Part shown: positions 9,253 to 46,196 of the stretch, in pieces
Layout of the letters: each line of letters opens with the position of its first letter
How positions within the stretch are numbered: the first letter of the stretch is position 1
From: Oceanobacillus luteolus
GTDB taxonomy: Bacteria > Bacillota > Bacilli > Bacillales > Amphibacillaceae
Length of the DNA: 49,759 bases
NCBI RefSeq assembly: GCF_023715655.1
Contig: NZ_JAMBON010000026.1
Coordinates: forward strand, 1 to 49,759
Reading direction: 5' to 3'
Translations under genes and position numbers: made by a program
Notes under the pieces: generated by a model
The model's database searches: none
Told to the model about the DNA's origin: nothing
What the model saw: the letters and a program-made list of their open reading frames with translations, nothing else

Positions 9253-10773
9253 ATGAGGTACAAAAATCCGAACACGGAAGGTGCAGTCGTTCATTTCAAG
9301 GTTCGGTATGATAACTATATTGGAGGCGAATATCGTCAGCCGGTTAAAGGGATGTATTTCGAAAATGTCAGTCCGGTAACAGGAGAAGCGTTCTGTGAAA
9401 TTGCACGGTCGACGAAGGAAGATGTGGACCTGGCTGTTCAAGCAGCGACGGAAGCAAAAGATACTTGGGGCAAAACGTCGGTTGCCGAACGGGCAAATAT
9501 ATTAAATGAGATCGCCAGGCGCATGGAAGAAAATATGGAGAAGCTCGCTGTTGCAGAGAGTTGGGATAATGGAAAAGCGGTCCGGGAACCGTTAGCAGCA
9601 GACTTGCCATTGGCAATCGATCATTTCCGTTATTTTGCAAGTGCGATTCGCGCGCAGGAAGGCGGCATCAGCCAAATCGACAATGATACGGTAGCTTATC
9701 ATTTCCATGAGCCGCTTGGAGTCGTTGGACAAATCATTCCTTGGAACTTCCCACTCTTGATGGCGACTTGGAAATTAGCTCCGGCACTTGCTACCGGAAA
9801 CTGTGTCGTATTAAAACCAGCGGAACAAACACCTGCATCAATTCATGTTCTGCTTGAGTTGATTCATGACCTATTACCACCGGGAGTACTCAACGTAGTA
9901 AATGGCTTTGGACTCGAAGCAGGAAAACCGCTTGCCACACATCCTGGCATTCAAAAGGTCGCTTTCACTGGTGAAACGACTACTGGCCGACTCATCATGC
10001 AATATGCGTCAGAGAATATCATTCCAGTAACTTTAGAACTCGGCGGAAAATCTCCGAATATCTTTTTTGAAGATGTGTTCGATCAGGATGACGGATTCCT
10101 CGATAAAGCGGTGGAAGGATTTACAATGTTCGCGTTAAACCAAGGAGAAGTTTGTACTTGTCCTTCCCGCGCTTTGATTCATGAATCGATTTATGATGAA
10201 TTTATGGACCGGGCTATTGCACGCGTGAAAGAAATTAAGATTGGTCACCCACTCGATACAACAACAATGATGGGTGCTCAAGCTTCAACCGAGCAAATGG
10301 AAAAAATCACTTCCTACCTCGATATCGGAAAACAAGAAGGCGCGGAAGTTCTTCATGGCGGCAATGTGAATCGTCTCGAAGGAGAACTTTCAAACGGTTA
10401 TTATGTAGAGCCGACTATCTTCAAAGGAAACAATAAAATGCGGATTTTCCAAGAAGAAATTTTCGGTCCTGTAGTTTCCGTAACAACATTCAAAGATAAA
10501 GAAGAAGCACTGGAGATTGCGAACGACACACTGTACGGACTAGGTGCCGGGGTTTGGACACGTAATATTAATACAGCATACCGTTTCGGACGTGAGATTC
10601 AAGCCGGACGTGTCTGGACGAACACGTATCATCAATACCCTGCCCACGCAGCATTCGGAGGCTATAAAAAGTCAGGAATCGGTCGGGAAAACCATGCAAT
10701 GATGCTCTCCCACTACCAGCAAACGAAGAACTTGCTGATCAGCTATAGTGAAGGGCCTGCTGGATTGTTCTAA
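9253..10773 (+). CDS. NAD-dependent aldehyde dehydrogenase (acetaldehyde type)
   Basis: A 506-aa class X aldehyde dehydrogenase (AcoD/ExaC-like) oxidising acetaldehyde or related aldehydes to acids. Landmarks: [20 protein letters not shown], the cofactor motif FTGETTTG (about 236-243), the general base Glu in LELGGKSPN, and the nucleophile Cys in [12 protein letters not shown] (about residues 296-302). Near the C-terminus is [14 protein letters not shown]. Length is normal. The ATG is preceded by AAAGGAGAGG. The DUF779 gene follows after a terminator, an association often seen for this ALDH type. Confidence 0.92.
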
Positions 10774-10781
10774 TAGAAGGA

Positions 10782-10817
10782 AAGGAGCTAATTCCACGAA
10801 AGATTAGCTCCTTTTTT
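10782..10817 (+). terminator. Terminator after aldehyde dehydrogenase
   Basis: An 11-bp stem (10782-10792 with 10803-10813) overlaps a T6 run. It lies between the ALDH and DUF779 genes, so read-through or a separate promoter is needed for the second gene. Confidence 0.85.
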
Positions 10818-10846
10818 GCATAGGTTACTAGCAAGGAGGGATTGCG

Positions 10847-11203
10847 ATGGTTGAACGTGTGATTGCAACAGATACCGCATTGCAGTTAATCGATAAGCTG
10901 AAATATATCCATGGGCCACTCATGTTTCATCAATCTGGCGGCTGTTGTGATGGAAGCTCGCCGATGTGTTATCCACGTGATGAATTCCGTACCGGAGAAT
11001 CAGATGTTTTACTCGGTAAAATTGGCGACACACCCTTTTACATGTCAAAAGACCAATATGAATACTGGAAACATACTCAATTGATCATTGATGTCGTCGA
11101 TGGCAGAGGCGGTATGTTTTCCTTGGAAGGTCCTGAAGGGAAGCGTTTTTTAACACGCTCAAGGGTATTTACGGAGGAAGAAAGAAAAGAGTTAGCTCTC
11201 TAA
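10847..11203 (+). CDS. DUF779 protein
   Basis: A 118-aa DUF779 family protein. The family signature is visible: HGPLMFHQSGGCCDGSSPMC (Cys pair plus a third Cys, about 22-41) and YEYWKHTQLIIDVVDGRGGMF (about 67-87; split). The Cys-His-rich motif looks metal-binding, but no activity is established that I know of. DUF779 genes commonly follow acetaldehyde-dehydrogenase genes, as here, so a role in assisting or protecting that enzyme is plausible. The ATG is preceded by GCAAGGAGG. Confidence 0.88.
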   Translation: MVERVIATDTALQLIDKLKYIHGPLMFHQSGGCCDGSSPMCYPRDEFRTGESDVLLGKIGDTPFYMSKDQYEYWKHTQLIIDVVDGRGGMFSLEGPEGKRFLTRSRVFTEEERKELAL

Positions 11204-11250: not shown

Positions 11251-12051
11251 CTAATTTATAATAACTTCCTTATGAAAGTTATGAGCAGCCCAGTTTCCTT
11301 CCATTTCAAATAATTCATAGACTGTTTCCTGGTCCTGTGGTGGTTCATTCACCCATTCCAGTAGCCTCCTGACAACAGATGTTTTCTCAGGGAAATACTT
11401 TATAAAGACTTCCGCCTGTTCAGCAAGGCGTGTCGTCCATATTTGCGAGCGTACCATCACCATGGAATAATAGGTTCGAATCAGTTTACGGGAAAAGTTT
11501 TGCACAACTGTATGCCACTCTTTCTCAGAAGCCTTATTTAAATTTTCCAGCGTTCTAGCAAGCACGTCACCAATATCTCCGTTAAAACTAATTGCGATTT
11601 CAGCTGATAAATTATACGGACCAAATTGCTCCCCTACGTCTTCACCGAATACACAAACAGATATTTCCTTAATAAAGGCATTTTCATAATAATTCTTCGG
11701 ATCCATGATATCTTGATAATTCGCAACTGCTATTCCGACATCACGAACCAAGGATTCATATTGGGCAGATAACCCTTGAGCAAGCTCCTTTAACACAGAC
11801 TTCTCTCTCGAACTTAGTTCACCATGAAACATCGCGATGACATCCAAGTCCGATTTAGAAATTACCGCATCTCCTCTGGGCACACTTCCGTACACATAAA
11901 CACTGTGAAGCTGATATTGAAATAACACTCGAAGACGTTCAACAGAATCCCTAATGCAAGGCAGGAAAACAGGATTTATCTTCTCCACACTTACATCACT
12001 TATAATATATCCTTGATTGTCAAGACCATACCCAGCTTTTAACCTTGTCAT
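11251..12051 (-). CDS. Nucleotidyltransferase-domain protein
   Basis: A 266-aa protein of the Pol beta-like nucleotidyltransferase superfamily. The motif is VYGSVPRGDAVISKSDLDVIA (about residues 51-71; G-S followed by the D-x-D metal pair). The rest is mostly helical and resembles the C-terminal half of aminoglycoside-type nucleotidyltransferases (ADP- or AMP-transfer), but the substrate is not readable. It lies 28 bases downstream of the 108-aa gene, in a transcript that begins with a SAM-I riboswitch. Regulation by SAM is unexpected for this family. A weak ribosome binding site (GAGGGGAG) precedes the ATG. Confidence 0.82.
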   Translation of the reverse strand: MTRLKAGYGLDNQGYIISDVSVEKINPVFLPCIRDSVERLRVLFQYQLHSVYVYGSVPRGDAVISKSDLDVIAMFHGELSSREKSVLKELAQGLSAQYESLVRDVGIAVANYQDIMDPKNYYENAFIKEISVCVFGEDVGEQFGPYNLSAEIAISFNGDIGDVLARTLENLNKASEKEWHTVVQNFSRKLIRTYYSMVMVRSQIWTTRLAEQAEVFIKYFPEKTSVVRRLLEWVNEPPQDQETVYELFEMEGNWAAHNFHKEVIIN

Positions 12052-12079: not shown

Positions 12080-12406
12080 TCATAACCCTACATATTCCAA
12101 ATAATTCCCATACCCTTTGACGATCGACAATCCATCCTGTACCAATCCATTCCAAATTTCCGCATCCAAAGCAAATGGACCGGTCGCCTGCAGTTCAGCA
12201 ATTCGTCTTTCAGAGATGACAGTTTCATAATATGTTTCCTCTAATCTCACGATAAAATGATAATCTGCCAATTTCATAATGTTCACCGCATAGTTTCCGT
12301 CCCATTCCAGAAGTTGCCGCTCTATTCCCTCACCAACAAATAGCAGGAAGTCTTCACTCTCATAATTTTTGGCAATCATTCCTCTAATCCATCCACTCGT
12401 ATTCAT
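12080..12406 (-). CDS. Hypothetical protein, first gene of SAM-riboswitch operon
   Basis: A 108-aa protein I cannot assign. It looks soluble and mixed alpha/beta, with a strand-rich centre (YAVNIMKLADYHFIVRLEE, about 39-57) and a Trp/Tyr-rich C-terminal half. The ATG is preceded by a near-perfect AAGGAGG. It is the first gene after the SAM-I riboswitch and terminator at 12440-12612, and the nucleotidyltransferase gene follows after 28 bases. No methionine or SAM pathway feature is visible in it. Confidence 0.75.
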   Translation of the reverse strand: MNTSGWIRGMIAKNYESEDFLLFVGEGIERQLLEWDGNYAVNIMKLADYHFIVRLEETYYETVISERRIAELQATGPFALDAEIWNGLVQDGLSIVKGYGNYLEYVGL

Positions 12407-12439
12407 CTTATTCTATTCCTCCTTTAATTTTCCTGGAGG

Positions 12440-12487
12440 ATAACAAAAAGAACGCCCTTTGCTGCATACGGAGTGCAACAAAGGGCG
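12440..12487 (-). terminator. Expression-platform terminator of SAM-I riboswitch
   Basis: On the minus strand, a 14-bp stem with one wobble (arms 12474-12487 and 12453-12466) is followed by TTCTTTTTG. It lies between the aptamer and the gene at 12406, as expected for SAM-induced premature termination. Confidence 0.85.
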
Positions 12488-12504
12488 AAAGTTTTCCGTT
12501 CCTC

Positions 12505-12612
12505 TTGTTATCATCCAAAGCAGTTTCGCTTTGCTGGGTGGAGCACCTTACTTGTTCGAGCAGGTTGCTGTGAAGTCATCGAGCCAGTTCTCTCATTCAC
12601 TCTTGATAACTG
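12505..12612 (-). ncRNA. SAM-I (S-box) riboswitch aptamer
   Basis: On the minus strand P1 forms from GTTATCA (12604-12610) and TGATAAC (12507-12513). The conserved core follows: ATCAAGAG, AACTGGCTCGATGA (kink-turn region), CAGCAACC, AAGGTGCT, then the P4 hairpin CAAAGC-GAAACT-GCTTTG. The usual GGG/CCC pair of P2b is GAG/CTC, a compensatory change. P2 GTGAA pairs with TTCAC. The conserved core and compensatory changes make the call strong. Downstream lie a terminator and the hypothetical-nucleotidyltransferase operon, not methionine genes. Confidence 0.92.
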
Positions 12613-12628: not shown

Positions 12629-12657
12629 GTTTTATCACAAGATTCACAGTTTGTAAA
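12629..12657 (-). promoter_or_regulatory. Candidate SigA promoter for riboswitch operon
   Basis: Minus strand TTTACA (12652-12657), a 17-base spacer, then TAAAAC (12629-12634). A start about 7 bases further would begin the transcript just before riboswitch helix P1. Confidence 0.5.
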
Positions 12658-13892: not shown

Positions 13893-13903
13893 TCCGCTCT
13901 TTT
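13862..13903. terminator. Bidirectional terminator overlapping a coding end
   Basis: A 15-bp near-perfect stem (13862-13876 with 13884-13898) with a 7-base loop and a T-rich + flank. It contains the last codons and stop of the permease gene and abuts the convergent VOC gene. Confidence 0.8.
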
Positions 13904-14579
13904 ACTTTCGATATACATCTACTTTATTGGAATCAACAGAAATTCGATACTGATTGGAAGTGGTAATCTCCAATGGGTAAACCGCAGATATTTTATCTGA
14001 GAAGAACCATTGCCTTCCAGGTTTATTGAGGATGATAAAAATCCCCTTAGATTTCTCTCCCATAAAGTTAAGCGATGTGATGCTGATTGGTTTATCATCC
14101 CGTTCATGGATACCAATTTCAATCAATCTATTTCCAACAGTTACAACATCCTCAACTGTAAGGCCAATTTCACTAATATTTAGTACATCTTCTACAGAGA
14201 ATGGCCCTTCTCCCCTTTCCGAGATAGAATGTCTGGAGATAAACTCTACTACATTACCAGCAGGATCATAAAAATATAAGGCATGGGCATCAGAGTAGGA
14301 GAAATAAACTTCATCTTCCCCCTCATTTTCGTTCAATGGCACTCTTTCTTTAACCCATGATTTAGCTTCTTCGAATTTATTTGCAAAAATGTTAAAAGCA
14401 AAATGATAATACGGATCACCTTTTACATTTTCTGTTGTGAATTCCAACTCACTAGAGCCTGCTTGGATACGAAATCTATTTTCATCTTCCATTACTAGCG
14501 GAAATCCGAAAGTATCTACATAAAATTCTTTCATTTCCCTAATGCTTTTAGTTTGAAGAGTCAATCGTTCTATTTCCAT
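13902..14579 (-). CDS. VOC family protein, 225 aa
   Basis: A glyoxalase/VOC-fold protein longer than usual. The first module is clear (LTLQTKSIREMKEFYVDTFGF, about 6-26; split) with HFAFNIF and ALYFYDPAGNVVEFISRH ending the canonical domain at about 118. A second half (about 125-225) begins like another VOC module (ISEIGLTVEDVVTVGNRL) but lacks obvious metal ligands. It may be a two-module protein of the CatE/YycE type or bind a ligand without catalysis. The ATG is preceded by AAGGGGTGG. It is followed by the bidirectional terminator; upstream lies glycerate kinase on the same strand, 45 bases away. Confidence 0.75.
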   Translation of the reverse strand: MEIERLTLQTKSIREMKEFYVDTFGFPLVMEDENRFRIQAGSSELEFTTENVKGDPYYHFAFNIFANKFEEAKSWVKERVPLNENEGEDEVYFSYSDAHALYFYDPAGNVVEFISRHSISERGEGPFSVEDVLNISEIGLTVEDVVTVGNRLIEIGIHERDDKPISITSLNFMGEKSKGIFIILNKPGRQWFFSDKISAVYPLEITTSNQYRISVDSNKVDVYRK

Positions 14580-37360: not shown

Positions 37361-37470
37361 TTCCTATCTTCCAAGCCATACATGCTTGATGGAATTAGCA
37401 CAGTATTCTCTGTTAGAACCTGTTGCCGAGGCTTCCGTGGGCCATATCCCTCCACCTCTCTTGATAAGAA
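37361..37470 (-). ncRNA. SAM-I (S-box) riboswitch, minus strand
   Basis: P1 forms from TTCTTATCA (37462-37470) and GATAGGAAG (about 37361-37369). Core motifs in order: ATCAAGAGAGGTGGAGGGA, TATGGCCC, CGGAAGCC, CGGCAACAGG, CTGTGCTAATTCC and a P4 hairpin AAGC/GCTT. The loop motifs ATGGCCC and GGAAGCC deviate slightly from the usual CTGGCCC and TGAAACC. It precedes the LLM monooxygenase and ATP-grasp genes. Confidence 0.92.
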
Positions 37471-37585: not shown

Positions 37586-37698
37586 TTCTTATCAAGAGAA
37601 GCTGAGGGACCTGGCCCGATGAAGCTTCAGCAACCTCTGATTTATCGAATCAGAAAGGTGCTAAATCCGGCAAGAAATAATTCTTGAGAGATAAGAGA
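37586..37698 (+). ncRNA. SAM-I (S-box) riboswitch, plus strand
   Basis: P1 forms from TTCTTATCA (37586-37594) and GATAAGAG (about 37690-37697). Core: TCAAGAG, GAGGGACCTGGCCCGATGA, CAGCAACC, AAGGTGCTAAATCC, then a P4 helix. It matches the consensus closely and precedes the FMN reductase and NtaA-type monooxygenase genes. It faces the other riboswitch at a distance of about 115 bases. Confidence 0.95.
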
Positions 37699-45930: not shown

Positions 45931-45965
45931 ATAAAAAACCGTTTGGTGCGGGAACACCAAACGGT
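45931..45965. terminator. Strong hairpin beside the toxin gene
   Basis: ACCGTTTGGTG and CACCAAACGGT form an 11-bp stem, with T6 on the minus strand. It can end a long toxin transcript, and on the + strand it would form the stable 5' end of the antisense RNA. Confidence 0.75.
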
Positions 45966-46060
45966 AAGTGCATACAGCCCTTCAAGGGGCGACTCACAAT
46001 AGAGTGTTAAAAATAACCACCGCTAATTGCTTGTCAGGCTAAGGGTGGTTATTTTTTATC
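45937..46060 (+). ncRNA. Candidate antisense antitoxin RNA
   Basis: A predicted RNA of about 124 bases starts after the TATAAT at 45925 with an 11-bp hairpin, has a second small hairpin (GCCC/GGGC), and ends in the shared hairpin AATAACCACC/GGTGGTTATT (46011-46054) with a T-rich + tail. It overlaps the 3' end of the toxin message on the opposite strand, as RatA and SR4 do in B. subtilis. Boundaries are inferred. Confidence 0.55.
46011..46058. terminator. Shared bidirectional terminator of toxin and antisense RNA
   Basis: AAATAACCACC (46011-46021) pairs with GGTGGTTATTT (46044-46054). T-rich tails on both strands let it end both converging RNAs. Confidence 0.8.
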
Positions 46061-46132
46061 GTTAATTGACAGTATCGCAACAATGAGACTCCCAAAGGAA
46101 ATCATCACAACCATTGCTTCATAAACCGTCAT
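46049..46132 (-). CDS. Holin-like type I toxin peptide, 27 aa
   Basis: A 27-aa peptide beginning MTVYEAMVVMISFGSLIVAI and ending SINDKK. It has a single hydrophobic helix with a short charged tail, the hallmark of the TxpA/BsrG/YonT holin-like toxin family. AAAGGGGGTG precedes the ATG at 7 bases, a strong site typical of these toxins. Stop and following hairpin overlap. A promoter with perfect TATAAT (46197-46202), extended by TGA, lies upstream. The 5' leader (about 60 bases, including GGTGGTGGCTCACTCCC) is structured. Convergent antisense RNA on + is described separately. Confidence 0.85.
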   Translation of the reverse strand: MTVYEAMVVMISFGSLIVAILSINDKK

Positions 46133-46196
46133 AGGCAACACCCCCTTTCTAAAAGGGAGTGAGCCACCACCCTGATAGCCTTATGCACTTGTCATC

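Follow-up and report, generated by a model that had tools for sequence, protein, structure and literature searches.

The window, which is the whole stretch of DNA analysed here, comprises 49,759 nucleotides of contig NZ_JAMBON010000026.1 of Oceanobacillus luteolus. On its minus strand we found a leader with an S-box aptamer and an intrinsic terminator, followed by two open reading frames of 108 and 266 amino acids (Table 1), the same two ORFs that an earlier note on this DNA had called. That note had read the locus as a SAM-I riboswitch controlling a nucleotidyltransferase operon with no methionine link, and had proposed either a new SAM-regulated function or a lost methionine gene whose switch captured new cargo. 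As a rule, an S-box stands before a methionine or sulfur gene.

Table 1. Features of the leader and of the two genes behind it.
Feature	Coordinates	Strand	Basis
Candidate promoter: TTTACA (12657-12652), 17-base spacer, TAAAAC (12634-12629)	12629..12657	-	By eye
SAM-I (S-box) aptamer of the GAG/CTC variant clade	12505..12612	-	RF00162 71.9 bits, model 1-108; clade features
Antiterminator: P1 3′ strand pairs with terminator 5′ arm	12473..12512	-	Leader fold and duplex energy
Intrinsic terminator: stem GCCCTTTGTTGC/GCAGCAAAGGGC, then T-rich run	12445..12486	-	Sequence and fold
Shine-Dalgarno AAAGGAGGA	12417..12425	-	By eye
108-aa orphan protein, conserved partner of the variant S-box type	12080..12406	-	ORF, homologue searches
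266-aa nucleotidyltransferase-like protein, passenger gene in the preferred reading	11251..12051	-	Weak NTP_transf_2

As the note had suggested, we ran the Rfam model RF00162, whose positions 1-108 matched at 12612-12505 (-) with 71.9 bits (gathering score 44.4, E 5.8e-15), confirming the S-box. The likeness to SAM-I extends over the whole model, the SAM-contact bases, the P1-P4 layout, and the terminator-type expression platform and includes, by eye, the CTGG/CCAG complementarity between L2 and J3/4. Folding gave a terminator stem at 12486-12454 with a T-rich run after it, and an antiterminator appeared when the leader was folded without the terminator 3′ arm (duplex energy -10.6 kcal/mol in silico). 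The two structures are mutually exclusive in the in silico folds; a terminator had also been described in the note. A terminator-like hairpin with T-rich sequence was present in 73/73 S-box-bearing leaders of the 108-aa family, compared with 232/1460 mononucleotide shuffles; this count comes from the stricter of two scans, the looser one having found 73/73 leaders but also 53/73 shuffles. From the anatomy of the window leader we infer that SAM binds and represses and that the protein is made in SAM shortage: with SAM plentiful the aptamer would close P1, the terminator would form, and the 108-aa gene would be off, and with SAM low the P1 3′ strand would pair with the terminator 5′ arm and the gene would be read.

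The window genome (4.0 Mb) has 17 S-boxes above the RF00162 cut-off, and the one at 12612-12505 (-) scores lowest of the 17. In the RF00162 alignment the ends of its P1 are unpaired, and it carries C61, C62, C64, and U85, leaving the 64-85 contact unpaired. It lacks the usual tertiary contacts of A61/A62 with P2b and of A24 with the U64-A85 pair, A24.(U64-A85). Because these contacts are common rather than defining features, its membership in the SAM-I riboswitch class (RF00162) stands, as a variant. To judge from the unpaired C and U at the 64-85 contact, the window's own aptamer may function more weakly. The window also contains two S-boxes of ordinary type, at 37361-37470 (-) and 37586-37697 (+), which point away from each other ahead of divergent genes that, by eye, encode a luciferase-type monooxygenase and a flavin-reductase-like protein.

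We collected homologues of the 108-aa protein by protein similarity only and sought S-boxes afterwards, using for the association counts a model (R1) built from the 16 other S-boxes of the window genome, with which Rfam's own model agrees wherever it was run. Among 96 distinct homologues, 69 have an adjacent S-box of >50 bits located 68-273 nt upstream on the same strand, 2 have a decayed one (~31 bits), and 25 have none. These 96 were retained from 116 loci after removal of L145 (no profile match), 13 repeated places, 4 fragments, and 2 identical proteins; most locus flanks were 1.5-3 kb. Counted by search, in sets that overlap partly, a same-strand upstream S-box was found at 9/10 loci from 58 relatives, 20/28 loci from named genomes, 13/16 further loci at the family level, and 43/61 further loci at the order level. 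Chance adjacency is negligible, since the whole 4.0-Mb genome has only 17 S-boxes compared with 69/96 homologues that carry one. The earlier note was correct that the S-box stands before a gene without known methionine function; this gene is the 108-aa gene, and the pairing is kept in other genomes. The suggestion of a lost methionine gene with captured cargo is not borne out, as the pairing recurs with proteins of 27-28% identity to the window's (L059, L060) and the 16 further S-boxes of the genome are mostly located, by eye, before sulfur or methionine genes.

The coupling between S-box and 108-aa gene looks old, with repeated losses, because in the midpoint-rooted protein tree (109 columns, many forks unresolved, bootstrap unsettled) both basal branches contain members with S-boxes, and L163, a member outside the order, has one too. 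An intact adjacent S-box is missing from 27/96 homologues, and 12 of the 25 with none belong to one clade. In two loci counted as lacking an S-box (L207, L224), one or two other genes separate the family gene from an upstream variant S-box, which scores only 47.9 bits in L207. The 108-aa family occurs in 25/159 genomes at the family level, 66/397 at the order level, and 32/398 at the class level; 24 of the 32 class-level genomes are from one family (f62) with divergent and shorter proteins, and none of 23 fetched f62 loci has an S-box. By eye, decayed S-box remnants are visible upstream of the 108-aa gene in L035 and L046.

The compensated GAG/CTC in P2b, which the note had pointed out, is present and turned out to be the hallmark of a whole aptamer subclass. 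We compared 73 family leaders (70 distinct) with 19 distinct ordinary S-boxes, a small reference mainly from one genome (16 from the window genome). Three substitutions are found in 0/19 ordinary S-boxes: the P2b pair G22-C30 becomes A-U in 72/73 family leaders, A85 becomes U in 72/73, and U64 becomes A in 64/73. Additionally, A61 is replaced by C in 44/73 leaders and A62 by C in 62/73, compared with A in 19/19 and 18/19 ordinary S-boxes, and the outer pair of P2a is U-A rather than A-U. In contrast to these changes from RF00162, U7, C44, A45, U57, G58, and U88 are invariant in 73/73 leaders (the window's row included) and G11 is present in 72/73; we take these to be the SAM-contact bases. Several of them are named as highly conserved in PMC3764141, which also gives A62-G23-C29 as a SAM-I triple and A61 as one of the highly conserved bases. 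The changed positions are those of the (A85-U64)-A24 triple and of the A61-62 contacts to P2, both of which are described in PMC9580860.

The alignment pairs 14-44, 23-33, and 90-121 are standard in 96.2% of cells, versus 72.0% when shuffled and ≤59.9% when slid, and 64-85 is unpaired in 9/89 distinct rows. We then used a wider set made up of the S-boxes of ten further genomes chosen for the variant or the family (98 rows aligned) together with pattern-found copies. Among 223 distinct aptamers, those with A-U in the middle of P2b have A64-U85 in 88/103 cases and those with G-C have U64-A85 in 85/106; classing was by regular expressions, which left 14/223 outside both P2b classes and position 64 unreadable in 15/106 of the G-C class. 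Of the G-C-class aptamers with A64-U85, one (L101) belongs to a leader of the 108-aa family. Because the two aptamer groups are related sets, these counts show a coordinated swap and not many independent events. Judged by sequence, the family's S-boxes are a separate SAM-I clade. Extra conservation of the variant aptamer was considered and rejected: its mean identity over 36 genome pairs is 0.759, which is lower than the best ordinary S-box pair (0.801) and higher than the median best match (0.702), and it beats the best ordinary pair in 8/36 (9/10 genomes, one being merged as an identical row; ordinary aptamers ≥135 bases excluded).

The departures of the window aptamer could also mean that the leader is a decayed S-box without switching, the gene being expressed by read-through. 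Its lowest RF00162 score among the 17, its unpaired P1 ends, and C64 facing U85 all fit such a reading, and decayed copies do occur in relatives (L036, 31.5 bits; L085, 30.5 bits; 31.8 and 37.8 bits with Rfam, under the cut-off of 44.4). However, the core of the window leader, the alternative pairing of P1, and the terminator are all intact, and its score of 66.5 bits with R1 is typical of the clade (range 52.5-77.4 bits), so we consider decay very unlikely.

The variant S-box is not exclusive to the 108-aa family, and recognised methionine genes are rare among its targets. A 32-base core pattern (≤1 mismatch) located 90 places in 85/397 order genomes, and the reversed control pattern located 0. 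The 108-aa family gene follows directly at 46 of these places and not at 44, of which 40 were fetched. At 12 of the 40, divergent or damaged 108-aa family members follow, as identified by profile searches whose E-values are partly circular since the last-round profile already contained some rows; at 2 (L207, L224) the family gene is further downstream; 13 precede an alpha/beta hydrolase (Pfam on part of one, the rest by sequence likeness), 8 a second small orphan family (6 by motif, 2 by eye), and 2, by eye, methionine genes; 3 have no assigned target. The methionine genes are metY-like in L210, where the variant S-box is in tandem with a second S-box, and metNPQ-like in L209, whose copy was matched via the mismatch only and resembles the ordinary type. 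Variant targets, being mostly uncharacterised small proteins and hydrolases, differ in this respect from those usual for RF00162. The hydrolase has ~255 aa and is found behind the variant S-box in several families (L213-L217, L235-L242), and the second orphan family has a motif like TPEELEAFKxERYxKFI (L205, L206, L208, L218-L222).

Altered sensing by the variant clade, for either a SAM-related ligand or a SAM range different from that of ordinary S-boxes in the same cell, and hence a second regulon, is an alternative to plain SAM control. The clear separation of the two classes at 64-85, the coincidence of the changed positions with published tertiary contacts, and the scarcity of recognised methionine genes among the targets all speak for it. 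But the presumed SAM-touching bases are unchanged in the variant, the 64-85 swap keeps a standard pair in most rows and so preserves rather than alters the fold, and in L210 the variant copy forms a tandem with a second S-box before the metY-like gene. We consider altered sensing unlikely. As a wider and tentative proposal, it is possible that Bacillales have two parallel SAM-I systems, in which ordinary S-boxes control methionine genes and an old remodelled clade with a different SAM threshold or selectivity controls, as a second regulon, new effectors for SAM starvation, including the 108-aa family, the alpha/beta hydrolase, and the second small orphan family.

The genes next to the 108-aa gene vary between lineages. 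Same-direction followers include a VOC-family gene at six loci (five in the Anoxybacillus family, one elsewhere; Pfam on one), a carboxyltransferase-domain (5-oxoprolinase-type) gene in O. bengalensis, and a CBS-domain gene in Lentibacillus. In one O. bengalensis locus (L037, 2799-6318), two copies of the S-box and 108-aa gene flank three same-strand genes, the first of which is the carboxyltransferase-domain gene. A pair of aldehyde dehydrogenase and DUF779 genes adjoins the S-box/108-aa unit both in the window (9253-11203, +) and in the distant family f25 (L143, L144, L146, L148), where the orientation differs from the window's. An M42/M28-type peptidase gene is located directly upstream at five distinct family places (L036=L010, L043=L091, L044, L056, L089). 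We rejected the peptidase as a general partner: matches are weak in all 58 relatives, and a long match (>250 bits) is found in only 2/58 (G028, and G042, which itself lacks the 108-aa family), with a 167-bit fragment in G010.

In the window, the follower is the gene that the note had called a Pol beta-type nucleotidyltransferase. A likeness to nucleotidyltransferases is present, and the assignment itself is weak, as the 266-aa protein scores 17.6 bits with NTP_transf_2 (Pfam cut-off 21) and 22 bits with ANT(9) (NCBIfam cut-off 340), far below what would place it among the ANT(9)-like aminoglycoside nucleotidyltransferases. The two genes share a strand with a 28-base gap and, by eye, no terminator between them, and could form a unit, with the nucleotidyltransferase under SAM control and the 108-aa protein as its partner. 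Against this, the comparison with other genomes that the note had proposed found an S-box at 0/14 nucleotidyltransferase loci (11 close, 3 distant; ~1.5 kb flank), and the gene adjoins the 108-aa family at 1/115 family loci, the window's own. Both genes occur together in only 2/58 genomes including the window's, and in the other they are on separate contigs. On the 0/14 loci and the single adjacency, we rejected the nucleotidyltransferase as the riboswitch target, and the operon as a regulated unit appears extremely unlikely. Our best explanation, to which we give a probability of about 0.78, is that a terminating SAM-I riboswitch from a distinct clade has just one conserved small gene, the 108-aa gene, under its control. 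The nucleotidyltransferase is, in this explanation, a lineage-specific passenger in second position, which may be expressed by read-through from the 108-aa gene.

Neither Pfam nor NCBIfam gave an accepted match for the 108-aa protein. Among 11 members searched at E up to 1, no two matched a common Pfam or PHROGs family, and the family has no match in the plasmids or phages searched. AlphaFold models of the window protein (pLDDT 86, pTM 0.79) and of a second family member (pLDDT 95, pTM 0.86) predict two helices followed by a three-stranded sheet and further helices. No PDB or viral fold matched the models at E≤0.001, the best matches being a designed protein (E 0.028) and a viral ORF (E 0.0032). 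The models have a helix-beta3-helix topology, and weak PDB echoes with the same topology include dsRBD, SRP Alu, and ribosome-hibernation folds, all at E>0.001 and with listed query TM-scores of 0.17-0.36. PDB sequence matches to influenza PA, at E 0.049 and above, were taken as chance. The net charge is ≤0 in 24/25 members of the family. Most likely, the product is a stand-alone soluble protein made under SAM/methionine shortage. We would guess that it is a regulatory or adaptor protein and not an enzyme, because it is small and mostly acidic, lacks an operon partner shared across its lineages, and shows no evident catalytic motif. The long retention of an S-box before one orphan protein strongly hints at a place for this protein in methionine/sulfur physiology, the usual field of S-box genes.

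Uncharacterised S-box genes have been described before in Bacillales. In the portion of PMC4342826 covered here, Bacillus methanolicus MGA3 is reported to have SAM riboswitches before BMMGA3_09040 and other genes of 'unknown function'; that portion describes neither the protein family nor the variant aptamer. We found that B. methanolicus DE0196 (L058) has the S-box of the 108-aa family with a frameshifted gene. The novel SAM-riboswitch genes of Bacillales were suggested to act in Met/Cys metabolism or transport (PMC3766115), in a text whose accessible sections do not name the 108-aa family. A literature search of open texts recognised no paper that names the family or the aptamer variant, and an earlier description is possible. 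The clade offers a natural compensatory swap, A64-U85 for U64-A85, at a tertiary contact of the SAM-I crystal structure, and supplies a ready set of orphan genes for a role in SAM shortage. The position of the variant S-box, mostly before uncharacterised genes, suggests that the bacterial reaction to a lack of methionine has a branch still unexplored.

Two further features were observed elsewhere in the window. The protein encoded at 13902-14579 (-) combines a domain of toxoflavin-degrading enzymes (TxDE, 77.8 bits) with one of glyoxalase type. BsrG is a type I toxin-antitoxin RNA, and a match to it of 90.7 bits is located at 45940-46187 (-).
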